A stretch of DNA of 40,347 nt from Alphaproteobacteria bacterium (lineage in GTDB: Bacteria; Pseudomonadota; Alphaproteobacteria; GCA-2731375). The stretch covers positions 1 to 40,347 of the forward strand of contig VGEV01000015.1 in assembly GCA_016869175.1 (NCBI GenBank), written 5' to 3'. This document shows, piece by piece, positions 11,531 through 28,597 of this stretch. The notes beneath the pieces were generated by a model. The model was given only the letters and a program-made list of their open reading frames with translations, was not told where the DNA came from and made no database searches. Both the position numbers and the translations under genes were made by a program. The first letter of the stretch is position 1. Every line of letters begins with the position of its first letter.

Positions 11531-12579
11531 GCGCTGGCGTCGAGCTGATCGCCGTTCGTCCCCAGCACCGCTTCGACGAAACGGTCCTGCACCGCTATCT
11601 CGCCGCACGCCTGCGCGGCTTTGGCGGACCGCTGAGCGTTCGGCAGTTCGAGGGCGGGCAATCCAACCCCACCTTCCAACTGGATTGCGAGGGGCAGAGC
11701 TACGTCCTGCGCAAGAAGCCGCCCGGCAAGCTGCTGCCTTCGGCGCACGCGGTGGATCGCGAGTACCGCGTCATGCGGGCGCTGGCCGACACGGCCGTGC
11801 CCGTGCCGCGCGTCTTGCATCTCTGCCAGGACGACGGCGTGATCGGTACCGCCTTCTTCGTCATGCAGAAGGTCGAGGGGCGCGTCTTGCGCGATCCTTT
11901 GCTGCGCGAACTGCCGCCGATCGAACGACGCCAGCTGTACGATCACTTCATCGCGGTGCTGGCGGCTTTGCACAAGATCGACTTCGCCGCCGTGGGCCTG
12001 GCCGACTTCGGTCCGCCCGGCAACTACTATGCCCGGCAGATCGGACGCTGGTCCAAGCAGTATCTCGCCTCCAAGACCGAGGAGATCGAGGCCATGGACC
12101 GGTTGATGGCGTGGCTGCCGGCCAACATTCCGGCTTGCGACGAGACCGCCATCGTGCACGGCGACTTTCGCATCGAGAATGCCGTCGTGCATGCCAGCGA
12201 GCCGCGCATCGTCGCCGTGTTGGATTGGGAATTGTCGACGCTTGGCCATCCCTTTGCCGACCTCAGCTATTGCTGCCTCGGCTATCGCGGCGATGTCGGC
12301 TCGTCGGTCGGCAGCCTGCAAGCGCAGTCGCATGCCGCGACCGGCGTGCCGAACGAGCAGGAATTCCTGCAACGCTATTGCCGGTTGACCGGCCGCGACA
12401 GCATTCCCGGCTGGGATTTCTATGTCGCCTTCTCGCTGTTCCGCCTGGCGGCAATCGGCCAGGGCGTCTACAAGCGCGGGCTGGACGGCATCGCCGCCTC
12501 GGCGCGTGCCGCCAGCTTCGGCCAGGTTTGCCGTCAGCGTTCGGAACTGGCCTGGAAGATCGTCACGGCTCGGGCTTGA
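11527..12579 (+). CDS. APH-family acyl kinase-like phosphotransferase, copy 2
   Basis: A 350-residue paralogue of the preceding gene, translationally coupled to it by a 4-bp ATGA overlap. It aligns end to end with that gene: HRFDETVLHRYL, FEGGQSNPTF, KKPPGKLLPSAHAVDREY, catalytic HGDFRIEN with Asp213, and DWELSTLGHPFADLSY with Asp233. All residues needed for ATP and metal binding remain, so it should be active. The differences in the substrate half suggest either a second substrate or a heteromeric pair. Its last 17 bp overlap the end of the convergent transporter gene. Confidence 0.88.
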   Translation: MSAGVELIAVRPQHRFDETVLHRYLAARLRGFGGPLSVRQFEGGQSNPTFQLDCEGQSYVLRKKPPGKLLPSAHAVDREYRVMRALADTAVPVPRVLHLCQDDGVIGTAFFVMQKVEGRVLRDPLLRELPPIERRQLYDHFIAVLAALHKIDFAAVGLADFGPPGNYYARQIGRWSKQYLASKTEEIEAMDRLMAWLPANIPACDETAIVHGDFRIENAVVHASEPRIVAVLDWELSTLGHPFADLSYCCLGYRGDVGSSVGSLQAQSHAATGVPNEQEFLQRYCRLTGRDSIPGWDFYVAFSLFRLAAIGQGVYKRGLDGIAASARAASFGQVCRQRSELAWKIVTARA

Positions 12580-13423
12580 CCGTGGCGCGGCGCATCACCT
12601 GATCCATCGCCAGCGCGGTTAGCACCGCCAGGCCGCCGAACAGTTCGAAGCCGCTTGGCCGCTCATCCAGGATGAGCCAAGCCCAAAGAACGGCGGGCAC
12701 CACCTCCAGCAGCACGATCAGGCCGCTTTGCGCGGCCGGCAGATGCCCGGCGGCGGCGGCGAACAGCAGGGTGCCACTGGCCAGCGCCACGCCCGAGAGC
12801 AAGCCGAACCACAGGCTGGGCGTGTTCGGCAGCCAGAGGGCAGGCGCCAGCAGCGCCGCCGGGACGCAGGCGGCCGCGCCGGCGATCAGCACGGCCGGCA
12901 ACAGGTCGATGGCGCGATGACGCCTGAGCAGCACGATGTAAAGCGCAAAGGCAGCCGCCACCACCAGCGCCAAGGCATCGCCCAGCAGCGTCGCCCGACC
13001 GGCCTTGCCCAGCACCATGATGCCGTTGCCGACAACCGCCAGAATGAGGCAGAGCCAACCGGAAGCGCGCACCCGTTCGCCCAGCCAGATCCATGCCAGG
13101 ATGCCGGCGATCAGCGGCGCCGTGTCGATCAGCACAATGGCATGCGCGATGGAGGTGTGCTGCAGCACGAACACGAACAGGACGAAGGTGCTGCCCATCA
13201 ACAGGCCGGCAACAATGCCGGGCCGGCCGATGCCAACCAGCTTGGCTCCGGCATGGCGGCCATAGAGCGCGAGCATGGCCAACGCGACCACGACTGTCAT
13301 TGCGGCCGAACGCAGGAACACGACGGTCCACGGATCGGCTTCGGCCAGTCGGATCAACGGTCCGCCAAAGCTCCAGCAGATCGGCGCGGCAAAGGTCAAC
13401 GTCAGCGCAAGGCGTGGTGACAC
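12563..13423 (-). CDS. EamA/DMT-family transporter
   Basis: A 286-residue inner-membrane protein with ten predicted hydrophobic helices in two EamA repeats (about 8-140 and 145-280), the standard DMT layout. Typical patches are FVLQHTSIAHAIVLIDTAPLI in the first half and LPAAQSGLIVLLEVVPAVLW in the second. Family members export metabolites such as amino acids, but the substrate is not readable here. It starts 37 bp after the stop of the decaheme-LVIVD cytochrome on the same strand, so it may be the last gene of that operon. Its 3' end overlaps the convergent kinase gene. Confidence 0.88.
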   Translation of the reverse strand: MSPRLALTLTFAAPICWSFGGPLIRLAEADPWTVVFLRSAAMTVVVALAMLALYGRHAGAKLVGIGRPGIVAGLLMGSTFVLFVFVLQHTSIAHAIVLIDTAPLIAGILAWIWLGERVRASGWLCLILAVVGNGIMVLGKAGRATLLGDALALVVAAAFALYIVLLRRHRAIDLLPAVLIAGAAACVPAALLAPALWLPNTPSLWFGLLSGVALASGTLLFAAAAGHLPAAQSGLIVLLEVVPAVLWAWLILDERPSGFELFGGLAVLTALAMDQVMRRATVKPEP

Positions 13424-13460: not shown

Positions 13461-16400
13461 CTATTCGCTGCGCCGGCGGAAGATCGACCGCGGGTCGGCG
13501 GGAGGGGCCGGCTGCGCCGGGGCTGTCGCCGGCGGCCGCGCAGGCGCCACCGTGGGTGCCCCGGGTTGCGCTGGTGCGGGAGTTGGCGTCGGTTGCACCG
13601 CCGGGGTCACGTCGGACCGCGGGGGCGCGTAAAGGGGCGCGGTGATCCAGGGGCCACCCGGCCGCCGGCGCGCGCCACTCGGTGCCGGCGGCAACGCGGC
13701 CAGGGCGGCCGTTTGCACCGCGGTCCGCGGCGGCTGGGGGGCCGGCACGAACTTCTCTGCCTCGACCCGGTCGCTCACCCGCCAGGGCTTGCCCTCCTTG
13801 TCGAGATAGAACCGCCGCTGCTCCGCCAGGTTGAACGGCCGCGAGCCCAGCCGCCCCAGGACGGCGATCTGTCCGCCGGTCTCGTCCACCGCGCGGTCGC
13901 GGTCCAGGCCCTTGGACAGCGACAGGGCCGGCCAGCTGGTCGGCCACCAGGCGACCAGTTCCGGCTTCGGATCGGGGCTGAAACCATAGAAATTCGGCTG
14001 GCTGTCTGGCGAGGTGAGCTGCACCACCTTGAGACCGTTCTTGCCGTCGGCGACATAGAGGAAGGCCGAAGCGTTGGTGCTGGCCACCTGCACGTCGAAG
14101 GCATCGTTGAGGCGCCCGTCGGCCGTGTACATCTGATGGACTGTCGGCCGTTCCGGATTCTCCACGTCGATGATGGCAACGCCTTCGCCGCGCGCCGCGA
14201 CGTAAGCGAAGGTGCGCGCGACATAGACGCGCTGCGCATCCTTCAGGCGCACCATCGCGTCCGCCACGGGCCTCGGTTTCTCCGGATTGGTCACGTCAAC
14301 CACCTTGAGGCCGTCGGCGTCGGTGACGAAGAGATAGCGGAATTGCACCGCGGTCGCCCGCGCGTCGCGGAACGGCAGCACCGCGGCCACCTTGGGCTTC
14401 AGCGGCTCGTTCATGTTGAGCACCACCACGCCCGCGTCGGCGACAATGTAGAAATAGTAGCCGGCGATGGTGATGTGCCGGGCGCCCTTCAACACGCCGC
14501 CGTCGTTCCAGGTGAGCTGGCGCGACAGGAAGTTGTTGCGCGGCTCGCCGTCCGACAGCGTGTTGACGTCGACGAGGATCAGGCCTTCCTCGGCATCGGT
14601 GATGAAGGCGTAGTCGTAGATCGGATGGAAGGGCTGCTCGAGGTTGACCTCGAACATCAGCTTCTTGGTGGCCTCGTCCTTCACCTGCCGGGCCGGGTGC
14701 ACCGGCTGGTTGGTGGCCAGTGCCATGCAGGTGGCGTTCTTGCTGGGCACGTGCGTGTCGTGCCCCAAGGAGCCGAACGGCGCGGTGATGATGCGGTCGG
14801 AAATGCCCTTGTTGGCGATCGAGGCGACGTCGTAGACCTGGAAACCGTTGGGCCCTTGCGAGACGTACAGATACTCGCCGCGCAACTGGATGCAGCCGGT
14901 GCGGTAGCCGGGCTGGGTATAGCTTTCGTCAAGCTTGCGGCCGCGTGCCTGGTGCTCGCGATACCAGTCGGGATAGGCGTATTTCTGCAGGTAGCTGCCG
15001 ATCACCGCCTGCGGCTCTTCCCACTCCGTCACGCGCACCGCCTCGAAGCCGCCATCGCCGCCGACCCAGGCGTTGAAGCCGACGAAGCCCACATAGTTGG
15101 TTCCGTGCAGCAGGAGTTGCGCCATGATCGCGTTGTTGTCGTTCCTGTCCGACAGATGGCAGTCGGTGCAGGTCTTGGTCTCGATCTTGCGCACCGTGTG
15201 GGGGAAGTGCGGCGCGAAGGCCTGGCTGGAATAGCCGCTGGCCGCCACCGGCGGCTGCTGGATGTAGATGCGCTCGCGGTTGATGTTGGTGGACGACAGC
15301 ACCAGCGCGGAGGACGAGCGGATCGGCGCCACCTTGTGGTTCTTGTAGACCGAGTGCTTGCCGAGCTGAAACATCTCGTCGCGCGCCACCTGCGGGTTGT
15401 AGGTGGCGTAGTTGCGCGTCTCGCCGCCCTCGTAATGGTGCCGGTCGGACTTCCAGTTGGCCTGGATCGGCAGATGACAGCCGCCGCAGCTGGTGGTCCA
15501 AGACAGATGGCAGGTGAAGCACAGCATCTCGTCGTCGTTATGCGCACGGGCGGCCTTGTCGCCCGCCACCCCCCAGCCCCATTGCATGCCGGTGCCCTTG
15601 ACCAGCAGTTTGGCGCGGGCGGACTTGGCGTTGTAGCCGGGATGCTCGGGGTTGACGCTGTCGCGCACCAGCGACATTTCCCATTCGCGTTGCGGACCCA
15701 GCGCCTTCTTGATCTTCTGGTCGGTCGACTCGGGCTGGTCGGTCCCCCACAGCATGGGCCGCTGGTAGAGCTTGCAGTCGCTGCGCGCGTTCAGCGCCTT
15801 GTCGCAGTCGCTGCCGCGCCATTCGAAGCGGGCGCGGCCGTCGGCATTGCGCAGGACCGAGAGATCGAAGCCGCCGGGCCGGGCCGCCGGGCCGCTGGTC
15901 CGCAAGGTCGGATAGCTGTCCACCGTACCGTGGCAATCCTCGCAGTCGATCTCCACGGCGTTGGCCACTTCGCCATAGATGTAGCCGTTGGAATGCGCGT
16001 CCTGCACGAAGTGGCAATCGACGCAGTGCATGCCGACGTCGACGTGGATCGACGACATGTGCACGGCCTTCTTCCACTTGTCGGGATCCTTGTGCTCGAC
16101 CTTGTTGCCGTCGGCATCCAGCAGGTTGCCCTTGCGGTCGCGCTTGTGGATCGAGCGGAAGTTCCAGCCGTGGCCGTGATAGTCGGCGAACTGCACGTGC
16201 TCCAGCTTGGGGTTGATCTCGGACACGCCGCGCATGAATTCGGGATCCGACCACAGGCCGCGGATCGCCGCTTCTTCCGGGTTGCGCTGGTTGATGGCGC
16301 GGATTTCCGCGGCGGACGGGTAGCGCTGCTCCTTGGGAAACATGTGCGGCGCTTCGGGCTCGTAGTCCCACATGGTGTAGCCCAGGAACGAGTTCACGAA

Positions 16401-17645
16401 CACGTTCGGCTGGTGCATGTGGCAGCTCATGCAGAGCGAGGTGGGGATGGCGCGCGAAAAGACATGGCGCAGCGGATGGCCTTCCTCGTTCTTCGGGATG
16501 GTGGGGTCCTTGGTCTGGGTCTTGCCGGTATGGCCGAAGCGGGCATAGGGGCCGGAATGGCGCTGGTCGCGGTCGTTGGCATAGACCACATGGCAGCCCG
16601 AACAGCCCGAGGAGCGGAAATCGCCCGGGTTGTCGTTGGTGCCCAGGAGCCACATGAACGGATCGTTGAGGCGGGTCTTGTGGATGTTCAGCACCGGCAC
16701 CGAGATCCTGAGGCCGGTGCCGGCGCCGCGGTTGGACTGCCGAATGTCGGGGCGGCCCGGCTCTTCCAGCCGCTGCAACTGCCCCAGCGAGTTGGGCAGG
16801 CCGATTTCCGGGAACTGCGTGACGATGTTGCGGCCGCCGCGCTCGAAAATGCGGAAGACGTCGCCAGGCGGAATCGTCTCGAAGGCGGGCAGCGGATAGA
16901 AGCGCGGCAGCACGCCGCGCTTGGCCAGCTTCTGCTTGAATTCCTGGGTGGCGTCGGGCGGAATCAGGCTGTCGAAGGCGGCGCCGACGCTGTGGCGCTC
17001 GCTGCCCTCGCCCACCACCTTGTAGCCTTCGCCCAGCAGATAGTGCTTGAACGGCAGGATGCCGTTGTTATAGGCGCCGCCGCCCCACAGCATGGCGCCA
17101 GTCGCCATCAGGCTGCGCTTGTTGTGCTCGATCTCCGGCATGTGGCAGGCGCCGCACGCCTCGTGCGCCACCCGATAATCCCCCGGATTGACGAAACGGA
17201 TGAATTCCGGCGCCTCGCGGTTCAGCAGCGTGTAGCTGCCTTCCGGATTGCGGCTGTGCGGATAATGCCAGCCGCCGGGAAAACGCGGCTGCACATGCGC
17301 CTTGTCCAGCGCGGCCATGTAGGCCGGTTCCTTGTGCTTGGTTCCGGCCGGCCGCATCACGCCGGCATCGCCGCCATGGCAATCGACGCAACCCAGCACG
17401 ATGGCCGGATTCTCGTGCATGTTGGCGCTGTCGGTCTCGGTATGGCAGGAGATGCAACCGATGCTTTTCTTGGCGGCGGCGTCGGCCGATTGCTGCGCCG
17501 GCGCCGGGGGTGTCACGGAATACACCACATGGCGCGGCGCTTCGCCGCCGGCCGCCAGGGCCGCGCCGCTCGCCCATGCGGCCGCCCACACGGCCGACAA
17601 TGTCGCGAAGATCGCCGTGCCCACCTTGCCTGACCGCACGCGCAT
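13461..17645 (-). CDS. Exported decaheme cytochrome c fused to an LVIVD-repeat propeller
   Basis: A 1394-residue exported protein. A Sec signal peptide (residues 1-32, cut near ALAAG) has no lipobox Cys. Ten CxxCH c-heme motifs follow: residues 64, 86, 164, 348, 405, 541, 568, 709, 720 and one near 830. From about residue 930 to 1240 the chain carries about six LVIVD-type repeats (for example YLFVTDADGLKVVDV and FAYVAARGEGVAIIDV), which form a beta-propeller. A Pro/Ala-rich tail ends it. The start is ATG 17645, behind AGGAGGGG. As the last cytochrome of the operon, after an outer-membrane barrel, it is the candidate terminal electron donor or acceptor outside the inner membrane. Whether it stays periplasmic or crosses the outer membrane cannot be seen. 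The propeller may bind a partner or substrate. Confidence 0.9.
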   Translation of the reverse strand: MRVRSGKVGTAIFATLSAVWAAAWASGAALAAGGEAPRHVVYSVTPPAPAQQSADAAAKKSIGCISCHTETDSANMHENPAIVLGCVDCHGGDAGVMRPAGTKHKEPAYMAALDKAHVQPRFPGGWHYPHSRNPEGSYTLLNREAPEFIRFVNPGDYRVAHEACGACHMPEIEHNKRSLMATGAMLWGGGAYNNGILPFKHYLLGEGYKVVGEGSERHSVGAAFDSLIPPDATQEFKQKLAKRGVLPRFYPLPAFETIPPGDVFRIFERGGRNIVTQFPEIGLPNSLGQLQRLEEPGRPDIRQSNRGAGTGLRISVPVLNIHKTRLNDPFMWLLGTNDNPGDFRSSGCSGCHVVYANDRDQRHSGPYARFGHTGKTQTKDPTIPKNEEGHPLRHVFSRAIPTSLCMSCHMHQPNVFVNSFLGYTMWDYEPEAPHMFPKEQRYPSAAEIRAINQRNPEEAAIRGLWSDPEFMRGVSEINPKLEHVQFADYHGHGWNFRSIHKRDRKGNLLDADGNKVEHKDPDKWKKAVHMSSIHVDVGMHCVDCHFVQDAHSNGYIYGEVANAVEIDCEDCHGTVDSYPTLRTSGPAARPGGFDLSVLRNADGRARFEWRGSDCDKALNARSDCKLYQRPMLWGTDQPESTDQKIKKALGPQREWEMSLVRDSVNPEHPGYNAKSARAKLLVKGTGMQWGWGVAGDKAARAHNDDEMLCFTCHLSWTTSCGGCHLPIQANWKSDRHHYEGGETRNYATYNPQVARDEMFQLGKHSVYKNHKVAPIRSSSALVLSSTNINRERIYIQQPPVAASGYSSQAFAPHFPHTVRKIETKTCTDCHLSDRNDNNAIMAQLLLHGTNYVGFVGFNAWVGGDGGFEAVRVTEWEEPQAVIGSYLQKYAYPDWYREHQARGRKLDESYTQPGYRTGCIQLRGEYLYVSQGPNGFQVYDVASIANKGISDRIITAPFGSLGHDTHVPSKNATCMALATNQPVHPARQVKDEATKKLMFEVNLEQPFHPIYDYAFITDAEEGLILVDVNTLSDGEPRNNFLSRQLTWNDGGVLKGARHITIAGYYFYIVADAGVVVLNMNEPLKPKVAAVLPFRDARATAVQFRYLFVTDADGLKVVDVTNPEKPRPVADAMVRLKDAQRVYVARTFAYVAARGEGVAIIDVENPERPTVHQMYTADGRLNDAFDVQVASTNASAFLYVADGKNGLKVVQLTSPDSQPNFYGFSPDPKPELVAWWPTSWPALSLSKGLDRDRAVDETGGQIAVLGRLGSRPFNLAEQRRFYLDKEGKPWRVSDRVEAEKFVPAPQPPRTAVQTAALAALPPAPSGARRRPGGPWITAPLYAPPRSDVTPAVQPTPTPAPAQPGAPTVAPARPPATAPAQPAPPADPRSIFRRRSE

Positions 17646-17672
17646 ACCCCTCCTGGCCAGCGCCCCGACGCC

Positions 17673-19499
17673 CTAGTACGTCAGGATGATGTTCGCCAGC
17701 ACGGAATAGAAGATGTCTTCCTCGGCGTTCGAGGCACGGTAGATGTCCTTGAAGCCTTCTTCCGGCAACAGCACCGCCCCCGACAGGCGGAACACGATGT
17801 TCTGGATGAACAGCGGCCGCCAGATCAACGCCGCCGACAGGTCCCAGCCGATCGCGGTGTCGATGTCGCCCTGGTTGCGCAGGAATTCGATTGACGACGA
17901 GTTAACGAAATCCAGGCGGTTGAAATTGGTGGACAGACGCAGTTCAGGCGTCAGGTCCAGATCGGTACCGATGCCGAACAGGGTGATGCCGGGGTTGTTG
18001 AAATTGGCCTGGCCGTGCTCCTTGGAGCTGCGCAACGACGGCAGCACGCCGTTGCGTTGCGACAGCACCACGCCGCCGCCGCCGATCAGCGGAATCCCCT
18101 GGCGGATCCAGAAACTGGTGTCGCCGCCGGCGAATTGCGGGTTCTCGAACGGCGCGTCGAAGCCTTCCTCGTCGTCGTCGAACGGGTCGTCGTCGCCGCT
18201 GGCATAGAGCGCCGACAGCCGCACGCGGATCCAGCTGAAGTCGATCGACGGTTCCAGCGCGGCGAAGAAGGCGCGAATGTTGGCGTCGCGCCGGCTGGTG
18301 AACTGGTTATGCTCGTCGTTGCCGAAGGCGTAGTAGAACGAGCCGGTCAGGTTGAACCGACCGAAATGACCGTCGCCGTTGAAGCCGATATAGGTGACAT
18401 CGTAGTTTCTCGGCCGCTCGTCGCCGATTGCCGCCGGCCGCTCCAGGAAGCCGTTCTCGTTGAAGAAGAAGGCGCGCTCGCCCTCGCGGTTGCGGTTATG
18501 CACCACGGTAAGCTGGCTGGTGAAGCCCAAGACCGGCGTGTCCTGCCGGTAGAGGTTGGCGATGAACAGGTCGTCGTCGCGGCTGGCGGCGGCGATGTCG
18601 TTCAAGCCCGAATTGGTGTCTTTTTCCAGACGACGGAAATAGGCCAAGTTGTACTGGTAGAGGTTGTTGGCCCGGGTGCCGAACAGGCGGGCGCCCAGTT
18701 GCAGATCCTGGAACAGGAAGCCGCGGAAATCGCTGGAGAATGGCTGAATACCGACGCGGATCGAATCGAAATCGTAGCGGTCGGAAACGTTGCGGATGTG
18801 GTAGTCGAAGAACAATTCCTGCATCGCCAGGAAGTTGTCATTGCGCTCGGCGCCGCCGTCCGGGTCGATCTTCAAGACCCGCAGCTCGTCCAGCTCGACG
18901 TAGTTGTAGTTGAAAACCGGGGTGATCCGGATTTCATAGTCGGGTGGCTTGTAGGCCGTGTTGCCCTTGATGAAAGCCAGACTGAAGATCACGTTCTGGT
19001 TGAAGATCAGCGTGTTGGTGTCGCCGAACAGGTCCAGCTTGTTGGCCGCCTTGGTGGTCTGCACGCCCACCGGCTTGGGGAAGGCGGACGGCTCAACCAC
19101 GGTGTCGGAGATGATGCCGATATTGACGAACCAGTCGTCGAACACCGGCCGGTCGCCCTTCAGCGTGCTTTGGCTGTAGGGGTCCCACCACTTCTCGTTG
19201 ACACCGATCGATTCGACGATACGCCAGCGATCGGGAATGGGGATGAAATCCTTCGGCAAGTTGGGCTGCCGGATATCGGGGCGTGGCGCCGCGGTCGGAT
19301 CGACCTTGATCGGCTCCTGCGGTGCCGGCGGCGGCACGCCCGGCCGGCGGCTGTCGTCCTGCGCGTAGCGATCGCCGCCCTGGCCGGTATAGCCCATGCG
19401 GATATTCGCGTTGGGGGCAAAGGATTCCTTGCCCGCCTGCGCGACCCCCGGACAGAGCGTGAGCGCCAGCAGCAGCGGCAGCGGACGGGGCAGGCTCAT
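17673..19499 (-). CDS. Outer-membrane beta-barrel (porin-like) protein
   Basis: A 608-residue protein with a clear signal peptide (MSLPRPLPLLLALTLCPGVAQA). The mature chain has many alternating-hydrophobicity strands and ends in NIILTY, an aromatic C-terminus typical of Bam-assembled outer-membrane barrels. Asp-rich loops (SGDDDPFDDDEEGFD near residue 440) fit surface loops. Its start overlaps the previous stop as ATGA, and the decaheme-LVIVD gene follows after 27 bp. By analogy with MtrB/PioB in porin-cytochrome conduits, it could seat a cytochrome across the outer membrane, but no sequence similarity to MtrB is claimed. There is no CxxCH motif. Confidence 0.8.
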   Translation of the reverse strand: MSLPRPLPLLLALTLCPGVAQAGKESFAPNANIRMGYTGQGGDRYAQDDSRRPGVPPPAPQEPIKVDPTAAPRPDIRQPNLPKDFIPIPDRWRIVESIGVNEKWWDPYSQSTLKGDRPVFDDWFVNIGIISDTVVEPSAFPKPVGVQTTKAANKLDLFGDTNTLIFNQNVIFSLAFIKGNTAYKPPDYEIRITPVFNYNYVELDELRVLKIDPDGGAERNDNFLAMQELFFDYHIRNVSDRYDFDSIRVGIQPFSSDFRGFLFQDLQLGARLFGTRANNLYQYNLAYFRRLEKDTNSGLNDIAAASRDDDLFIANLYRQDTPVLGFTSQLTVVHNRNREGERAFFFNENGFLERPAAIGDERPRNYDVTYIGFNGDGHFGRFNLTGSFYYAFGNDEHNQFTSRRDANIRAFFAALEPSIDFSWIRVRLSALYASGDDDPFDDDEEGFDAPFENPQFAGGDTSFWIRQGIPLIGGGGVVLSQRNGVLPSLRSSKEHGQANFNNPGITLFGIGTDLDLTPELRLSTNFNRLDFVNSSSIEFLRNQGDIDTAIGWDLSAALIWRPLFIQNIVFRLSGAVLLPEEGFKDIYRASNAEEDIFYSVLANIILTY

Positions 19500-21346
19500 T
19501 TGCCGGAACAAGGGGTTTGCGTGTCGTCGTTGACGAACGGCCGGAACGGGCAACTGACGTAGCGCAGGCGGATGCCCTGCGGCGCCAGGTTGTCGGCGCG
19601 CAAGGCCATCGGCGCGTTGGCGACGCCGCTGGCCAGCTGCAGGCCGGCATTGTGCGTTCCCAGGAAGGCGATCATGTCGTCCTGGTCGATGCCGTCGCCC
19701 GAAATGCCGATGGCGCCGGCCAGGACGCCGTTCTTGTACACCGGCACGCCGCCGGCGAAGATCTGCAACCCGTTCGCCAGCCGCGGCATGCCGGTTGCCA
19801 CCTGCAACGGCAGGCCGGTGCAGCCCACGGCCGTGTCCACGCCCGAGGCGCCGGTGACGAAGTTGAGATGCTGCACCACGTTGTTGGCGATCAGGTCGAG
19901 TTGCAGGCCGGTCGAGAACGGGCTCCAGGACGGAAACGGCCGCGACAAAGGTCCAGGCTGGTTGTTGGAATTGCCGTCGGGGAAGAACGGCCGCGCCAGG
20001 TTGCCGATCGAGCGTGCGGCATAGGCGAAGCCGTCGGCGAGAGCGTTGGGTCCCAGCAGCGCCCGGGTGCTGGCAACGTAGCTGGCAAAGCCGCCGGCGG
20101 TCAGGTCGGCCGCCGCCGCGACATTGCTGAAGAAGGCCGCCGAGCGCGCTTTCTGCAACGACACGTCGGTGCCGAAGACCGGGCCGTCGGGGGTGCGCAC
20201 CACCCCCAGCACGGTGCCGGCCGTGTCCACCACCGAGAGCGTGACGTGGATCTGGTCGTTGAGCGGCCGGCGGATCTGCGCGCGGCCGGCGTTGGCCACC
20301 TGCAGACCGGCGCGCAGGATCCCCGTCACCTCGGCCCGGGTCAGGCCGCCGTCGGTCGCATCGCGCGGCGCGAAGCGCTGCGTATTGGTGCCGTCGACCA
20401 GCACGAAACCGTTGAGGTCGGCGAACAGTCCGGAATTATCTAGCCGGTAGCCCGAGGCGGCTGTGCCAAACGCCTGGCCGTCGACAATGACCGCGCCGTT
20501 GGTATAGCCGGTCACCGCCTGAACCGTTCCCAGCACGCCGTTGATCGCGGCGAAGGCCGGCGCCGCGGCGGGCGCCGACACCAGCGATTCGATGTCGCGG
20601 TCGGCGAAGCGCAGCGTCTTGCCGTCGACCGCGATGCGGTTCGCGCGAATGCCCACCGGGGCGGCGAAGCCGACGCTGCCGGCGATCGCGATCAGTTCGT
20701 CGCTGTCGGTGTCGAAGTCGGTGATGTTGCGGTCAAGCCCATAGATCGCATCGGCGATCACGCCGATCCCACCCACCAGGATGTTGGCCTTGTAGAGCGG
20801 CATGCCGCCCGGGTCCGCGGACAAGCCCAGCGGCGAACGTTTCGGGCCGATATTCTGGTTGACCGAGGCGGCGACGAAGCGAACGTTCAGGTCGGAACAG
20901 GGCAATTGGCTGAACTGCACGCCGAATAGCGGCCCGCCCGGCTGGTTGGTTTCCAGCGGATTAAAGAACTCCTGCACGATCTGGTTGGCCGTGCGGCTGG
21001 TGAAGGCGTTGCCGTTCGACGACAGATAGGCCCCGGTGACCGCCTTGGCGATGGCGGCCGCCGACGCCGGGACGTTCGCCCCCTCGAGGCCGGTGGTGAC
21101 GCTGCGACCGGAGGTGACGGCGGCGGTCGCCGCGGCACCGTTCATGGCGAATACGCCCAGCACGTTGCCGACCCGGTCCACGACGGCGATGGTGGCAGGC
21201 CGGCCGCGCGCCTGCGCCTCGTTCACCGCCCGGGCGATGATCCGTTGCACCTCGGCGATGCTCAGCGACTGCTGCGCCAGGGTCGGCGCCGACAACCCCA
21301 GCAGCACCGGCAGCAACAATGCGCACCGCCACAGCCGGCCGATCAT
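19496..21346 (-). CDS. Exported protein with two HbpS/GlcG-like domains
   Basis: A 616-residue exported protein. The signal peptide is MIGRLWRCALLLPVLLGLSAPTLAQ without its last residues fixed. It carries two copies of the HbpS/GlcG-like fold, seen as ARGRPATIAVVDRVGNVLGV plus GGIGVIADAIYGLD in the first half and IHVTLSVVDTAGTVLGVVR plus GAIGISGDGIDQDDMIAFLG in the second. The family includes haem-binding and haem-degrading HbpS and the GlcG protein of glycolate operons. Fusion of two copies and a place inside a 20-haem cytochrome operon suggest haem handling or redox sensing, which is inference. It is coupled by 4-bp overlaps on both sides. Confidence 0.78.
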   Translation of the reverse strand: MIGRLWRCALLLPVLLGLSAPTLAQQSLSIAEVQRIIARAVNEAQARGRPATIAVVDRVGNVLGVFAMNGAAATAAVTSGRSVTTGLEGANVPASAAAIAKAVTGAYLSSNGNAFTSRTANQIVQEFFNPLETNQPGGPLFGVQFSQLPCSDLNVRFVAASVNQNIGPKRSPLGLSADPGGMPLYKANILVGGIGVIADAIYGLDRNITDFDTDSDELIAIAGSVGFAAPVGIRANRIAVDGKTLRFADRDIESLVSAPAAAPAFAAINGVLGTVQAVTGYTNGAVIVDGQAFGTAASGYRLDNSGLFADLNGFVLVDGTNTQRFAPRDATDGGLTRAEVTGILRAGLQVANAGRAQIRRPLNDQIHVTLSVVDTAGTVLGVVRTPDGPVFGTDVSLQKARSAAFFSNVAAAADLTAGGFASYVASTRALLGPNALADGFAYAARSIGNLARPFFPDGNSNNQPGPLSRPFPSWSPFSTGLQLDLIANNVVQHLNFVTGASGVDTAVGCTGLPLQVATGMPRLANGLQIFAGGVPVYKNGVLAGAIGISGDGIDQDDMIAFLGTHNAGLQLASGVANAPMALRADNLAPQGIRLRYVSCPFRPFVNDDTQTPCSGK

Positions 21347-21759
21347 TCCGGCACCACGTCGAACACGCCGAACTTGAGCTGGCCCCCGGCCCGATAGGCG
21401 ACGGTGACGGTGACCGGCAGGAAGCGCTGCGTCAAATCCTCCTTCAGCACCTTGAAGGTCAGCAGGCCGCCGGTCGGCTGGAAACCGTTGTCGATCAGGC
21501 TGGCGGGCGTGCCATCCCAAGGCAACCAGTAGCCCTGGTTGGTGCGCTGCAGGCTGCGCCCGTCCGGCATCGAAGCCATGACATGGCTGGCGGTCGGCAC
21601 ATCGCCGCCCAATTCGACCGTCTTGCCGACATTGGCGGCGGCGATCGGCACCTTGACGGGCGCCAACCGCGCGCCCTTGCTGTTGAGGGTTTCGGCCTGT
21701 GCCCCCAACGCAACCAGCAGCCCAAGGCCCGCCAAGCCTGTGGTGCGCGCCAGATTCAT
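21343..21759 (-). CDS. Small exported beta-rich protein of unknown function
   Basis: A 138-residue protein with a signal peptide (MNLARTTGLAGLGLLVALGAQA). The mature part looks beta-rich (VKVPIAAANVGKTVELGG and FLPVTVTVAYRAGGQLKFG) and has no Cys, so it binds no c-type haem. A family is not recognised. It lies 56 bp after the FHA-decaheme cytochrome and overlaps the next start as ATGA, so it is clearly part of the operon. A periplasmic accessory or assembly factor is the plain guess. Confidence 0.75.
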   Translation of the reverse strand: MNLARTTGLAGLGLLVALGAQAETLNSKGARLAPVKVPIAAANVGKTVELGGDVPTASHVMASMPDGRSLQRTNQGYWLPWDGTPASLIDNGFQPTGGLLTFKVLKEDLTQRFLPVTVTVAYRAGGQLKFGVFDVVPE

Positions 21760-21815
21760 GCCGCCCCGACCCCCCGGCTTGCGCTACGCGTGGCAACTGC
21801 ATAACCCAACATCGC

Positions 21816-23687
21816 CTACTTCACAATCGCGGCCGCTTGCGGCTTGCCTTGCATCGGCGCCATGCGGTCGATGTGGAATTCGTGGCACATGACGCAGGTC
21901 GACGGCACCAGGTTCGCCGCCCGTTCGCCGCCGTGACATTGCTGGCAAGTCTCGATCTTCGGCAGCAGCACGTCGGCGCTGCACAGCGAGGGCAGCGGAT
22001 TGTCGGCCAGCAGTTCCTTCTGCACCGCCACCCGCTCGCAGGCAGCGCTGGCCACCCAGACCTGGCCCGCGCCCAGCGGCGCGCCTTCGGCCGCGACCTC
22101 GTTGGCTTGCCCCTGGTGGCACCCCGAACAGGCCACCGTGTCGTGGCTCTTGTGGTCGAACTTGCCGAGCGGCAGCCAGCGGTTGACCACTTTCGGCCGT
22201 TGCACGTCCCACTCGCCGCTGGCGGCGATCGTGGTGTTGTGGCAATAGCCGCACAGCGCCTCGCCGGCATAGCGCACGAAGGCCTTGCGCTGCTCCTCGG
22301 CCCAGGCCGCCGCTTCCGCCAGCTCTTCGCGGCTCTCCGGCCGGCCGGGTCGGCGCGGCTGCAGCATGCGCGGCTCCGCCTCGCGCGCCTGCGGGTCGCG
22401 GTAGGCGGCGTTCTCAAGCGCGACGCGATAGTAATAGTCGCGGCCGATGTCCTGCACCTCCTTGGGCTTGGCATGCGGCAACGAGCGCTCGGGCGTCAGC
22501 TTGATCGGGTGGCATTCCTGGCAATGCGTTTCCATGTCGATCGGCAGGAAACCGGCGCCGCCCGGCTCCTGCTGATGACAGTCCTTGCAGTCGAGCAGCC
22601 GCCGCCCGCTCGGCGAGTTGACGCCTTGGCGCGGCTTGCCGTCGCGGTCGGCCACGGTCATGCGGGTCAGGTGCACGGCATGGGGGAAGCGCAGGCCCGA
22701 GACCTCGCGCAAGCGCGGCTTGCCGTCGGCCCCCTTGCCGGCGTCGGCCAGGCTCACGCGCTCGATCCTGCCGCCGTCGGGCGCGCGGAAATCGGTCATC
22801 ACCGAGGGTCGGAACTGCGGGTGATTGGTCAGGAAATCGCTGGCGTCCTGCAGTTTGGTATCCGCCAGGCGACCCTTCAATTCGCTATGGCAGCCGGCGC
22901 AGAAGCGCTGATCCGACAGGACAATGGCCTGTCGTCCGTTATGCTCCTTGTGGCAGCTTTGGCAGGCGGGCGTGGCGCCGGCGGCGGCCTGTTCGAAGCG
23001 CTTGGCCTCGGCATGGTGCCGCGTTGCCACATGACAGGCGACGCAGGCTCGATCCGCCACTTGCTCAAACGGCTTCTGGTGGCAGGTTTCGCACCGATCG
23101 CCGAAGAAGTTGTGCGCGCCCGAGATCGTGCCGCTGAGCCAGGTCTGGTCGAACCGGGCCATGGCGCCCGCCGGCGGCTCGCTCAGCTTCTGGCCCGCCT
23201 TGCCAAAGTATCCGGCAATCGGCAGCGCCAGGAACAGCGCCACCACCGCCAGAAACAGGCCCCAGGCGGTGCGCCGCTTGCTGAGCCAAGTCTCGGCCAG
23301 GCTGGTGTGGCTGCGCGACCTCAATTGCTCCAGATCGTCGCCCAGCGGCCGCGCCAGTTCGACGGTCAGCGCGAACTGCTTGCCGACCGGCGCTTCCACC
23401 ACTTCCAGATCGTACGGCCCGACCGCCAGCTTGTCGCCGAGCTTGAGCTTGGCCGCCCGCGTCGGCGCGCCGTTCGCCCTGAGGTCGAACGGCGGCACGC
23501 TCTGCATGAACATGCCGCCCGGCTGCTCGACGATCTCGGCCGCGTGCAGCGGGATGCGCGGGTCGGCCAGATAGATCTCGCATTCGGCGCCACGGCCGAT
23601 GCGGATGGTCGCGGCCGAGATGTCGATGTCGCGCCGCGCGACGCCGCCGCGGGCCCGGCGTGTGAGTGTGCTGACGACGCAATCCAC
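21816..23687 (-). CDS. FHA-domain, membrane-anchored decaheme cytochrome c
   Basis: A 623-residue protein joining three parts. Residues 22-112 form an FHA domain (IRIGRGAECEIYLADP, then PLHAAEI), the phosphothreonine-reading fold. The Gly-Arg is kept, but the usual Ser of SxxH is Ile. One membrane helix (141-161) follows a basic KRR, which puts FHA in the cytoplasm and the rest in the periplasm. The remainder holds ten CxxCH motifs: CETCH 199, CVACH 215, then CQSCH, CAGCH, CKDCH, CQECH, CGYCH, CSGCH, CQQCH and CVMCH. It starts at GTG 23687, 14 bp after the cytochrome b stop. It is placed to carry electrons from the membrane b-hemes across the periplasm. The FHA part suggests control by protein phosphorylation or docking of the cytoplasmic reductase. 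Confidence 0.88.
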   Translation of the reverse strand: MDCVVSTLTRRARGGVARRDIDISAATIRIGRGAECEIYLADPRIPLHAAEIVEQPGGMFMQSVPPFDLRANGAPTRAAKLKLGDKLAVGPYDLEVVEAPVGKQFALTVELARPLGDDLEQLRSRSHTSLAETWLSKRRTAWGLFLAVVALFLALPIAGYFGKAGQKLSEPPAGAMARFDQTWLSGTISGAHNFFGDRCETCHQKPFEQVADRACVACHVATRHHAEAKRFEQAAAGATPACQSCHKEHNGRQAIVLSDQRFCAGCHSELKGRLADTKLQDASDFLTNHPQFRPSVMTDFRAPDGGRIERVSLADAGKGADGKPRLREVSGLRFPHAVHLTRMTVADRDGKPRQGVNSPSGRRLLDCKDCHQQEPGGAGFLPIDMETHCQECHPIKLTPERSLPHAKPKEVQDIGRDYYYRVALENAAYRDPQAREAEPRMLQPRRPGRPESREELAEAAAWAEEQRKAFVRYAGEALCGYCHNTTIAASGEWDVQRPKVVNRWLPLGKFDHKSHDTVACSGCHQGQANEVAAEGAPLGAGQVWVASAACERVAVQKELLADNPLPSLCSADVLLPKIETCQQCHGGERAANLVPSTCVMCHEFHIDRMAPMQGKPQAAAIVK

Positions 23688-23701
23688 GGGCGCTTACCGC
23701 C

Positions 23702-24532
23702 TTACCAGTAGAAGAAAACGGATATCACATGCGCCACCAGCGCGGCGATCAGCGCGAAGGTGAGCGGCACATGCACGTAGAGCCAAATGTCCAGCATCGC
23801 CTTGATCTGCACGTCGCGCCGGGCGCGACCAAGCAGCTCGTCCTTGCGGGTCAGCAGCGCGATCAGGCGACGCACATGCTCGGCGCCCTCGCTGCCGATG
23901 CTGTCGCCCAGCTCGCGCACCCTCTTCAACGCCCGGGCGGTCGCGCAATCGGGCGCCCGCCCGCTCAGTTGCCGAAGGACGCCGCCGCCGACCCTGGTGT
24001 TCTGGCTGGCCTCCAGCACGGTCCGATTGATCTCGTCGCCCAGCGTCATCACCTGTTCGCGGCACTCCACGTCCAGCTCGGCGATCTGCGCCAGTATGTC
24101 GGTCAGCGTCAGGCCGCGCCGGTTCTCGGTCATCAGCGCGGGATAGCGCAGATAGACGAAGACGCCGAAAACCCCGCTGGCGATCACCAGCATCATCAGC
24201 ACATAGGCCAGCGTGTGCACATTCCAGCCGAACTGGAAGCCAGAATGCAGCGTGGCGATCACGATCAGCGACAGCCCCAGGTAGACATGCGCCGACAGCC
24301 AGCCCTCCAGCCGCCACTTGCCGGGGCCGTAGCTGCGCTTGCGCATGCCGAACCACATCAGCCACAGGATCAGCGCGGCGCCGATGGAGCCCAGGCCGTA
24401 GCCGAGCCAGGTGCCGCCGTTGGGCATGCCAAGCGGCCGGTCGACGGCGTAAGCGACGATCGCCGCCAGCATCAGCAGCGTCGCCACCTTCAAATACAGA
24501 AAGCCGCGATAGACCAGTACGGACTCGTTCAT
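23702..24532 (-). CDS. Di-heme cytochrome b-type membrane protein
   Basis: A 276-residue inner-membrane protein with about five membrane helices: four in residues 8-130 and one at 253-274. His residues in helices, about H82, H96, H106, H254 and H268 (AHVYLGL, TLHSGF, VHTLAY, YVHVPL, AHVISVF), can ligate two b-type hemes as in cytochrome b561-like quinone or iron-sulfur-linked subunits. A soluble helical insert of about 110 residues lies between the fourth and fifth helices. A GTG at 24535 directly before the ATG could also start it. It sits between the iron-sulfur oxidoreductase and the decaheme cytochrome genes, so it is the expected membrane step between them, with or without quinone. Confidence 0.82.
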   Translation of the reverse strand: MNESVLVYRGFLYLKVATLLMLAAIVAYAVDRPLGMPNGGTWLGYGLGSIGAALILWLMWFGMRKRSYGPGKWRLEGWLSAHVYLGLSLIVIATLHSGFQFGWNVHTLAYVLMMLVIASGVFGVFVYLRYPALMTENRRGLTLTDILAQIAELDVECREQVMTLGDEINRTVLEASQNTRVGGGVLRQLSGRAPDCATARALKRVRELGDSIGSEGAEHVRRLIALLTRKDELLGRARRDVQIKAMLDIWLYVHVPLTFALIAALVAHVISVFFYW

Positions 24533-24549
24533 CACCCCGTCCCCGCCGA

Positions 24550-24567
24550 TCCGCCCGCCAGGGCGGA
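24550..24567. repeat. Intergenic hairpin between reductase and cytochrome b genes
   Basis: TCCGCCC-gcca-GGGCGGA is a perfect 7-bp stem with a 4-nt loop in the 55-bp gap. No T-tract follows on the coding (minus) strand. It may tune expression ratios within the operon. Confidence 0.4.
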
Positions 24568-24587
24568 CCCGCCCCTCGTCCCCGCCA

Positions 24588-26975
24588 CTAGCGCTGGCCG
24601 AGCGTCGCCAGACTCAAGAACCGTTCCGGATTGACGCGGATCGCCGCCCCGGTCGGACAACCCCTGACGCAGGCCGGCCCGCCCTCGATGCCCGAACACA
24701 TATCGCACTTCACCGCCTTCTTCTGACCGTGCGGATGCGCCGACTTGTCCTGCCCGGGACCCGGCCCGGCGCCGAACAGCAGCCAGTTGAGGATGCTGGG
24801 CTTGCCGGGCGGCCGCACCGCCAGCTGAATGACGCCATAGGGGCAATTGCGCTGGCAATTGCCGCAGCCGATGCAGCTGTCGTCGATGAACACCTCGCCG
24901 TTCGGTCGGCGGTGGATCGCGTCCGGCGGGCAATCGGTCATGCAGTGCGGGTGCTCGCAATGCCGGCACGACGTCGGCACGTGCACGTTGGCGAAGGTCG
25001 GTCCGGCCTCGCGGTTCAACCGCGAGATGCCATCGTGCGATTCGGCGCAGGCCTTCTCGCAGTTGTCGCAGCGCACGCACAGCGCCTCGTCGATCAGCAG
25101 GATGTCCGTCGCCTCCGAGGCGCCCTGGTCGACCAGGAACTGGATGATCGAGCCCACTTCCGGCGCATTCGCCATGCGCTCGTTCTGCTGGATGCGGTCC
25201 CCGAACTTCTGTTCCACCTCCTTGCGCAAGGCTTCCGAGCGGGACATCAGCCGCTTGAAGGCCTGGCCTTCGATGCGGATCGTCTCGGTGTGGTTGATCG
25301 CCGCCCTGACCGTGGCCGAACGCGGCGCGTCCGACAGCAGCGCCATCTCGCCCACGTAATTGCCGGCGGCAACATAGGACAGCACGATGTCGCGGCCGCC
25401 GATACGCCGCGAGACGGTGACTGAGCCGCGCCGGATCAGGTGCACGCTGTCGCCGATCTCGCCCTCGTTGAACAGCGTCTCGCCTTCCATGAAATGCTGC
25501 GCCTGGGCCGAGGCCAGCACGTCGGCCAGGTCGTCCTTGGCCAGCCTGGGCGCGAGATAGGTCTGGATCTGCCGGGCGATCGCCGTCTGATCCATCACCC
25601 GGCGCACTTCCTCGACCGAGTTGATCAGCTTGATCATCGACCGGCGGTTGGTCTCCAGCAGCACGCAATCGCTGTGTGCCTTGATGGTGGCGGTGCGCCG
25701 GCGGCCGGAGATCAGGCCCATCTCACCGAAGAACTCACCCTTGCCCAGCAGCACGACCTCCGTGGGGTCGTTGGGATTGACCTCGATCGCCACCTGACCG
25801 TCGACGATGGTGTAGAAGGTGTTGGAATAGTCGTTGCGGGTGAAGATCGCTTCGCCCGGTTTCGGCGTCCGCACTTCCGAATCCAGCATCAGCTCGCGCA
25901 GCAACAGCGTGTTCAGCTCCCGGAACAGCGGCACATTGTCGCGCACGCGCTTCAGGAACGCATCAACCGACACGCCGGGCAGGATCTTGATCTTTTCTTC
26001 GAGCAGCGGTTCGTCGGCCGGCTTCAGCTCGCGGTTGCCGCGGATGAACTCGATGACCTCATAGCCCTGGTTCATCGCCTGCTTGATCAGCGGATAGCCG
26101 CCCAGCGCGCCGATGATGTACAGGCCCTCGACATTGCTCTCGTAGTGCCGGCTGACTTCCGGCAGCGAGGCGGGATTGTCGTTCGGGAACTTGACGCCGC
26201 AACTCTCCACGAACTGGCGCGGCGGAATGGCGCCCAGCCGGGCGATGATGCGGTCGCACTTGATTTCGGCCTCGCCTTCCGGCGTGCGCAAGGTGATGGT
26301 GCCGGGCGTCACCTTCACCGGGGCGGTGTTGAAATAGCCCTGGATCACGCCTTTCTCGATCGCCGCGGTGACGGCATCGAGATTGCCCTGCTTGGCGCGG
26401 GCGAACTCGTCTCGCCGGTTGACGATCAGCACGGTATTCTGTTTCGACAGCGCCACCGCGTTCTCGATCGCCGCGTCGCCGGCACCGATCACCACCACGG
26501 TCTCGCCTTCGTATTCGTCGGGATCGTCGAGCTGATACTGCACGTGCGGCGCGTCGGCGGCTCCCGGGCAATCCAGCTTGCGCAGGTTGCCCTGAAGGCC
26601 GATCGACAGGATGACGTTCTCGGCCGTCAGCTTGCTGCCGTCGGTCAGGCTGATCTCGAAGGCGCCCTTCTTGCCCTTGACCCGCGTGACCTCCGCCTTG
26701 TAGCGGACGTTCACCTTGTGCTTCGCAAGGTCCTCGTCCCAGGCGCCCAGCACCTCCTCGCGCGCGCCCGCCTGGAAGCGGAACGGACTGCGCAGCGGCA
26801 AGATATCCGGCGTGGCCATGACATACTTGCCCTTCTGGTACTTGAAGATGGTGTCCGAGGCGTGCGGCATCTTTTCCAGCAGCACATGCGACAGGCCCGC
26901 CTCGGCCGCGTGCCCGGCGGCGCTCAGTCCGGCCGGCCCGGAACCGATAATGGCGACAGCAACGTTGTCAGCCAC
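24588..26975 (-). CDS. FAD/NAD(P) oxidoreductase fused to two cyclic-nucleotide-binding domains and a four-cluster ferredoxin
   Basis: A 795-residue cytoplasmic fusion. Residues 5-315 form a TrxR-like FAD/NAD(P) reductase: FAD motif IGSGPAGLSAAG (10-21), NAD(P) motif VVIGAGDAAIENA (161-173), and no CxxC, so it is not a thioredoxin reductase. Residues 365-450 and 488-575 are two cyclic-nucleotide-binding folds with phosphate cassettes FGEMGLISGRRRTAT and VGEMALLSDAPRSATV. Residues 632-775 hold four Cys groups (CVRCDNCEKAC, CRHCEHPHCMTDC, CIGCGNCQRNC, CDMC...CVRGC) as in DmsB/HybA-type four-cluster proteins. GTG 26975 is chosen because GGAGG lies 7-8 nt upstream; upstream codons are Arg-rich non-coding. 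As first gene of the operon it should move electrons from NAD(P)H to the b-heme protein, perhaps gated by cAMP or a related nucleotide. Confidence 0.9.
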   Translation of the reverse strand: MADNVAVAIIGSGPAGLSAAGHAAEAGLSHVLLEKMPHASDTIFKYQKGKYVMATPDILPLRSPFRFQAGAREEVLGAWDEDLAKHKVNVRYKAEVTRVKGKKGAFEISLTDGSKLTAENVILSIGLQGNLRKLDCPGAADAPHVQYQLDDPDEYEGETVVVIGAGDAAIENAVALSKQNTVLIVNRRDEFARAKQGNLDAVTAAIEKGVIQGYFNTAPVKVTPGTITLRTPEGEAEIKCDRIIARLGAIPPRQFVESCGVKFPNDNPASLPEVSRHYESNVEGLYIIGALGGYPLIKQAMNQGYEVIEFIRGNRELKPADEPLLEEKIKILPGVSVDAFLKRVRDNVPLFRELNTLLLRELMLDSEVRTPKPGEAIFTRNDYSNTFYTIVDGQVAIEVNPNDPTEVVLLGKGEFFGEMGLISGRRRTATIKAHSDCVLLETNRRSMIKLINSVEEVRRVMDQTAIARQIQTYLAPRLAKDDLADVLASAQAQHFMEGETLFNEGEIGDSVHLIRRGSVTVSRRIGGRDIVLSYVAAGNYVGEMALLSDAPRSATVRAAINHTETIRIEGQAFKRLMSRSEALRKEVEQKFGDRIQQNERMANAPEVGSIIQFLVDQGASEATDILLIDEALCVRCDNCEKACAESHDGISRLNREAGPTFANVHVPTSCRHCEHPHCMTDCPPDAIHRRPNGEVFIDDSCIGCGNCQRNCPYGVIQLAVRPPGKPSILNWLLFGAGPGPGQDKSAHPHGQKKAVKCDMCSGIEGGPACVRGCPTGAAIRVNPERFLSLATLGQR

Positions 26976-27092: not shown

Positions 27093-27175
27093 TCACAGCG
27101 GCGCAAGATTAGCAGAACGTAAAAAGCCGTCGATTAGTCTCGCGCTTCGTGCAGCCCTCCTTTGGAGAATCGCAC

Positions 27176-28597
27176 TTGGCCGATCACGCCTCGGCGGCGC
27201 CACCGACCCTGTTGCTGGTGGAAGACAGCCCGACGATGGCACGGCTCTATCGCCGATTCGTCCGGCACGAGCCATACGCCGTCGTGCACGCCGCCAGCGC
27301 CGCCGAAGCCGCGGCCGCGCTCGGCCGCCTGACGCCGGCGGTGGCGCTGATCGACCTGCGCCTGCCGGACGCCGACGGCCTCGGCCTCCTGCGGCAGATT
27401 CGCGCGGACGGCCTGCCCACGGTGGCGGTGGCGATGACCGCGCATGGCAGCATCGAACTGGCGGTCGAGGCCATGCGAATCGGGGCCTTTGACTTCCTGG
27501 TCAAGCCCTTCGCCCGCGACCGCCTGCTCGTCACCTTGCGCAATGCCTTCGATCGGTTTCGCCTGACCGGGCTGGTGGAACGCTATCGCGCTGAGTTCGG
27601 CCGCGACCGGCTGTGCGGCTTGCTGGGCGGCTCGGACGCGATGCAGGCCGTCTATCACACCATCCTGGCGGCGGCGCGCAGCCGTGCCGCCGTGTTCATC
27701 AGCGGCGCCAGCGGCACCGGCAAGGAGCTGGCGGCGCGCGCGGTGCACGAGCTCAGCGAACGACGCGGCCGGCCGTTCGTGGCGGTCAATTGCGCTGCCC
27801 TGCCGGCCAGCCTGGCGGAAAGCGAACTGTTCGGTCATCGCAAGGGCGCCTTCACCGGGGCCGACGCGGCGCGGGCCGGCGCGGCGGCCTCGGCCGACGG
27901 CGGCACCCTGTTCCTCGACGAAATCAGCGAGATGGAGATCGCGACCCAGGCCAAGCTGCTGCGCTTCCTGCAAGGCGGCCGTTTCACCCCGCTCGGCGCC
28001 GACCGTGAACAGGTCGTCGACGTGCGCGTCCTGGCGGCCAGCAACCGGCGCCCGGAACAGGCCATGGCGGAGGGATGCCTCCGCGAGGACTTGTTCTACC
28101 GCCTCAACGTGATCCCGCTGGAGCTGCCGAGCCTGAAGGAGCGAGAGGCCGACGCGCTGCAGATCGCCCAGGCATTGCTGGCGCGCGTCGCCCGGGCGGA
28201 GGGCAAGCGCTTCGGCGCCATGGCGCCCGATGCCGAAGCCTGCCTGCTGGCCTACGACTGGCCGGGCAACGTGCGCGAACTGGAAAACAGCATCCATCGC
28301 GCGGTGGTGCTGAACGATGGCGAGCTGTTGACCGCCGCCATGCTGCCGCCGGCGCTGCGTGCCGCCACCCTGCCGCCGGCGCCGGGCGTCGCCGTTCCGC
28401 CGGTGCCGGCCTCGCCCCCCGGTATCCGTCCGCTCATCGAGGTCGAGCGCGCCGCCATCGAAGCCGCGTTGGCCGCCTGTCGGGGCAACGTCGCGCGGGC
28501 CGCGACGCTGCTCGGCATCAATCCCTCGACGCTCTACCGCAAGCGGCAAGCCTGGGAGGCGGGTGCCGCCCCGCCGGCCGCCAGCGCCGCGCGATAG
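27176..28597 (+). CDS. NtrC-family sigma54-dependent response regulator
   Basis: A 473-residue activator with three domains. The receiver spans residues 10-125, with acidic E16/D17, phosphoacceptor Asp60 (ALIDLRLPD), Thr88 and Lys110 (FLVKPF). The AAA+ domain spans about 145-380, with Walker A GASGTGKE (177-184), the sigma54-contacting loop GAFTGAD (224-230) and Walker B TLFLDEI. A C-terminal Fis-type helix-turn-helix (GNVARAATLLGINPSTLYRKR) ends it. TTG 27176 is favoured as start because GGAGA lies 7 nt upstream; a GTG at 27149 lacks such a site. It is transcribed away from the cytochrome operon, so it is the likely activator of that operon. No cognate histidine kinase is in the window, and the nearby Hpt gene is broken. 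Confidence 0.9.
   Translation: MADHASAAPPTLLLVEDSPTMARLYRRFVRHEPYAVVHAASAAEAAAALGRLTPAVALIDLRLPDADGLGLLRQIRADGLPTVAVAMTAHGSIELAVEAMRIGAFDFLVKPFARDRLLVTLRNAFDRFRLTGLVERYRAEFGRDRLCGLLGGSDAMQAVYHTILAAARSRAAVFISGASGTGKELAARAVHELSERRGRPFVAVNCAALPASLAESELFGHRKGAFTGADAARAGAAASADGGTLFLDEISEMEIATQAKLLRFLQGGRFTPLGADREQVVDVRVLAASNRRPEQAMAEGCLREDLFYRLNVIPLELPSLKEREADALQIAQALLARVARAEGKRFGAMAPDAEACLLAYDWPGNVRELENSIHRAVVLNDGELLTAAMLPPALRAATLPPAPGVAVPPVPASPPGIRPLIEVERAAIEAALAACRGNVARAATLLGINPSTLYRKRQAWEAGAAPPAASAAR

Follow-up and report, generated by a model that had tools for sequence, protein, structure and literature searches.

A candidate NAD(P)H-fed electron conduit of Proteobacteria that joins an inner unit of PCC4 composition to a differing outer module

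Background

PCC4, a predicted porin-cytochrome system of iron bacteria, comprises a porin, cytochromes with 4, 5 and 10 hemes and an inner membrane protein that bears the WX3HX13H motif twice; in its Subgroup II the gene for this protein has a PF13247 iron-sulfur (FeS) gene upstream (He et al. 2017, PMC5566968). The same work compared this di-heme signature with NADPH oxidase/ferric reductase, and depicted both PCC3 and PCC4 as delivering the electrons of an external donor into the quinone pool (PMC5566968). The MtrCAB, MtoAB and PioAB conduits unite decahemes with an outer-membrane barrel, and in Geobacter, whose ExtABCD and ExtHIJKLMNOPQS clusters employ outer lipoprotein cytochromes, the ExtB cluster is needed for electrode growth. 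In NADPH oxidase and MsrPQ, a flavin donor in the cytoplasm hands electrons of NAD(P)H to a heme-bearing membrane protein, which passes them on to the outer side of the inner membrane.

Here we describe an operon from a window of 40,347 nucleotides (by which we mean the whole stretch of DNA that was analysed, positions 1-40,347 of contig VGEV01000015.1, assembly GCA_016869175.1) of an Alphaproteobacteria bacterium of the GCA-2731375 lineage. By composition rather than by accession, three of its proteins (A, B and C), together with an eighth part (H) encoded elsewhere in the genome, appear to match PCC4, the outer parts of which would be replaced by the non-homologous proteins D, E, F and G. 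The initial annotation, which recognised no described system with this set, was in this respect too strong, as PCC4 agrees with A, B, C and H in composition and with B in signature (PMC5566968).

Locus organisation

The seven genes (A to G) occupy positions 13461-26975 of the window, all on the minus strand (Table 1), and are separated by spacers of 52 nt (A/B), 14 nt (B/C), 56 nt (C/D) and 27 nt (F/G), the D/E and E/F junctions being ATGA overlaps. They had been described beforehand as a single unit arranged along an electron path, and our check of the sequence reproduced the coordinates, order, strand, gaps and overlaps, as well as the succession of reductase (A), di-heme b protein (B), decaheme (C), barrel (F) and second decaheme (G). 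The start of A is a GTG at 26975, the point at which its homologues also start, and that of F is most likely the ATG at 19499.

Table 1. Features of the operon and of its divergent neighbour (positions in the window)
Feature	Position	Strand	Description	Remarks
A	24588..26975	-	Cytoplasmic reductase: FAD/NAD(P) domain, two cyclic-nucleotide-binding (cNMP) domains, four [4Fe-4S] sets	PF13247
B	23702..24535	-	Di-heme-b membrane protein, five hydrophobic helices	WX3HX13H x2, SGXXG
C	21816..23687	-	N-terminal FHA domain, one membrane helix (residues 143-161), periplasmic decaheme	
D	21343..21759	-	Small exported protein, without family	
E	19496..21346	-	Exported, two HbpS-like domains	PF03928, 2 stretches; ATGA overlap with D
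F	17673..19499	-	Outer-membrane beta-barrel, AlgE-like, 18 strands in model	ATGA overlap with E
G	13461..17645	-	Exported decaheme with LVIVD beta-propeller at C-terminus	
Regulator	27149..28597	+	NtrC-type response regulator (receiver, sigma-54 domain, HTH_8)	Divergent from operon

The NtrC-type gene is a possible regulator of the operon; since no homologue of it was found at 80 other loci, any control that it exerts would be local. A sigma-54 promoter was sought in the gap between A and this regulator, and in the absence of a convincing site we dropped the notion that such a promoter drives the operon. The remaining neighbours are a tandem pair of similar phosphotransferase-like genes on the plus strand (10466-11530 and 11527-12579, joined by an ATGA overlap and APH-like by eye) and, immediately downstream of G, a minus-strand gene for an EamA/DMT-like transporter (12563-13423, by eye).

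Inner-unit proteins

The domain search of A, together with its four Cys4 sets (16 cysteines, 100% conserved in 64 homologues), bears out the proposed cytoplasmic NAD(P)H/FeS entry with four [4Fe-4S] groups. Outside the FeS domain no cysteine is conserved at 90% in the same 64 homologues, and as the FAD part thus lacks conserved cysteines, a thioredoxin- or YpdA-like thiol reductase could be ruled out, and electrons probably leave through the FeS domain. Read by eye, the phosphate-binding-cassette sequences of the two cNMP domains (FGEMGLISGRRRTA and VGEMALLSDAPRSATVRA) look intact. The motifs of B confirm the di-heme b membrane step, being both WX3HX13H motifs and the SGXXG of the PCC4 inner membrane protein, and A lies upstream of B just as the PF13247 gene does in Subgroup II. 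Moreover, A and B together recall the layout of NADPH oxidase and MsrPQ, from which the set of the window differs in its additional FeS clusters, multiheme cytochromes and outer-membrane parts.

The FHA domain of C, whose best profile match is GarA (3e-12), lacks by eye the SRxH motif seen in classical members, which renders phosphothreonine binding doubtful. The 20 c-type heme motifs previously counted in two decahemes are indeed present (10 CXXCH each in C and G) and nearly invariant, 10 being found in C at 59 of 62 loci and in G at 81 of 82; of the four exceptions, one is a complete C with 9 (L032) and the others are genes truncated at contig ends. Neither C nor G has an MtrA/DmsE-family match in Pfam or NCBIfam, and PDB sequence searches of C, G and F returned no match.

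Outer-module proteins

D is present at 15 of 80 loci, mostly in Alphaproteobacteria. F has no Pfam family, and its model (mean pLDDT 76.5), with AlgE as the closest structure, folds as an outer-membrane barrel of 18 strands (counted from the listed elements), in agreement with the barrel predicted earlier. Such a barrel would be small in comparison with the 26-strand MtrB that sheathes a decaheme in MtrAB/PioAB, which argues against an MtrAB-like plug; furthermore, the decaheme there is of the MtrA/DmsE family, unlike those found here, and barrel size and decaheme family together rule out a canonical MtrAB conduit. ExtB of Geobacter is likewise predicted with 18 membrane segments, but the Ext proteins show no full-length homology to those of the window, and no NAD(P)H reductase is described for them. 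G weakly matches ExtM (64 bits), far under the curated cut-off of 800, so that we ruled out an ExtM orthologue. In the model of G the C-terminal propeller is well resolved and the heme region is of low confidence.

Co-conservation across genomes

A scan of genome contigs confirmed at least 590 relatives of G, from which 80 loci were kept, nearly all labelled Proteobacteria (L019, L076 and L077 carry labels of other phyla, as record labels only). Recurrence of the genes and of their order in other genomes had been put forward as a check on the operon, and both were found: A, B, C, E, F and G occur together at 54 of the 80 loci (14 with A-G complete and 40 with all but D), and with the addition of L010 the number rises to 55, among which 39 are collinear on one strand. 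The order A-B-C-(D)-E-F-G recurs in many proteobacterial families, and this kept order, together with the near-invariant heme counts, rules out chance or artefact. Other loci show the blocks A-B-C and E-F-G split apart or inverted, from which it follows that the set consists of two modules. In 14 genomes of the same family C was absent save for one weak FHA-only match, which suggests horizontal spread or loss. Among the named carriers are Haliea, Duganella, Steroidobacter and sphingomonads, which are mostly aerobic heterotrophs and are not known as metal respirers; a MAG named for a biocathode (L053) also bears the operon.

An eighth part and type II secretion

H, a C554-like protein with 4 CXXCH and 1 CX4CH, adjoins the operon at 51 of 82 loci. 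Among 192 genomes of Alphaproteobacteria G was detected in 12, C in 17 and H in 15, and all 12 genomes with G have both C and H (Fisher p about 1e-15 to 1e-16 for the co-occurrence of the three over these 192 genomes, the kinship of which inflates independence). In the genome of the window H is found on another contig (C10), divergent from type II secretion system (T2SS) genes, namely a GspE-F-G-H-J-K-L-M cluster (L094, G000:C10:28001-45132). The operon had been called a complete conduit, a claim that does not hold, as H accompanies G in all 12 genomes but is encoded elsewhere here; H and the linked T2SS genes are thus additions to the seven-gene account.

T2SS genes adjoin the operon itself at 10 related loci (several genes at 6, and at 4 a prepilin peptidase gene alone at the edge of the stretch); in Shewanella, according to Shi et al. 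2008 as cited in PMC7198977, this system moves MtrC/OmcA to the cell surface. At some gammaproteobacterial loci (L069:14976-17110 and the like) H is followed instead by genes for a PP2C phosphatase and a double-FHA protein, hinting at phospho-signalling around the conduit. At one locus (L097:4963-12437) A-B-C and H stand together with neither outer module nearby.

Comparison with PCC4-type loci

Like PCC4, the window's genome encodes a 10-heme (C) and a 4-heme (H) cytochrome and a barrel protein; it differs in that its operon has a second 10-heme protein (G) in place of the 5-heme one, in that the 4-CXXCH protein H is unlinked, and in the extra presence of D, E and G. The PCC4 composition, in which a 5-heme protein and a porin accompany A-B-C and H, is seen in two of the 192 genomes (L095 and L096), and a third (L098) has B, C, the 5-heme protein and the porin. 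One such cluster holds two H-type cytochromes (L096:9418-10749 and L096:14139-15521). Profile comparison of F with the porins of PCC4-type loci (assigned as such by composition, not accession) gave a probability of 0.1%, and G showed no detectable homology to their 5-heme protein, which was ruled out as its homologue since the match spans only 23 residues of heme motif. In a quick tree of A, sequences from PCC4-type loci branch at two supported positions within the window-type ones, and outer modules therefore appear to have been exchanged on one shared inner unit.

Discussion

Taken together, these observations make it probable, in our judgement, that the operon encodes a trans-envelope conduit that is fed by NAD(P)H, gated by cyclic nucleotides and built with an outer module that can be exchanged. 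NAD(P)H would donate its electrons to the FAD of A, from where they would reach the four FeS clusters under the gating of the two cyclic-nucleotide domains; the two b hemes of B would take them over the inner membrane in the fashion of NADPH oxidase, and C, anchored in that membrane, would bring them into the periplasm, with H probably acting as a relay. F and G would form the outer-membrane end, the propeller of G being probably exposed at the surface and perhaps G itself delivered by the T2SS linked to H, and E would be accessory. Given the NAD(P)H donor domain in A, outward flow is the more likely direction, presumably towards an extracellular acceptor. The domains and cofactor sites, the likening of the B signature to NADPH oxidase/ferric reductase, the FHA domain of C, the barrel model of F, the kept gene order, the constant association of G with C and H and the position of H beside T2SS genes all argue for a conduit; against it count the 18-strand model of F and its resemblance to a polysaccharide exporter, the low confidence with which the heme region of G is modelled, and the mostly aerobic nature of the named carriers. 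In its widest form, that of a cNMP-gated NADPH-to-surface conduit with a shared A-B-C-H, exchangeable outer modules and a T2SS-delivered propeller-decaheme, widespread in aerobic Proteobacteria not known for external electron exchange, the proposal is a tentative one.

The same chain could also run inwards, as proposed for PCC4: G would oxidise an external donor, and the electrons would travel by way of C and B either into the quinone pool or, if energy is supplied, onto NAD(P)+ via A. PCC3 and PCC4 were drawn in this direction by He et al. 2017, and the operon shares A-B-C-H with PCC4-type loci and occurs in the biocathode-named MAG. However, A is retained with B and C at nearly all loci where it is visible, which suits NAD(P)H oxidation, and the named carriers are mostly heterotrophs; we regard inward flow as unlikely. 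Alternatively, NADPH electrons may feed G or secreted enzymes at the surface, for action on polymers, extracellular superoxide or the reduction of a specific compound, and serve no respiratory conduit at all. The likeness of F to the alginate exporter AlgE, the T2SS linkage, the HbpS-like E, the mostly aerobic hosts and the NADPH-oxidase-like layout of A-B would all fit such a redox enzyme system, but conserved genes for hydrolases, oxygenases or polymers were absent next to the operon in the clustered neighbourhoods, and two decahemes would exceed the needs of a simple enzyme feed; we thus consider it quite improbable.

Should the NAD(P)H-fed conduit be borne out, many ordinary aerobic Proteobacteria would possess a regulated route by which NAD(P)H electrons are released or taken up at the surface, and one inner unit could serve conduits with interchangeable outer ends. 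For PCC4-type systems, NADPH and cyclic nucleotides would then offer an experimental point of entry, and hosts already in culture (for example Duganella, Parahaliea) would open the way to gene deletion and current measurement.

With regard to the known systems, PCC3 (Gallionellaceae; He et al. 2017) resembles this set in the motif pattern of B, the porin and the periplasmic and outer cytochromes, but its cytochromes usually carry far more hemes (medians 34 and 21), and no NAD(P)/FAD/FeS protein is described for it. The electroactive gene sets of Methylobacter and Idiomarina were compared as well and are not the same set. We found no description of a D-E-F-G outer module joined to an A-B-C-H inner unit in the literature searched, which covered few subscription papers. 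Thus the inner half of the system has the composition of the predicted PCC4, whereas D-E-F-G forms a differing outer assembly.
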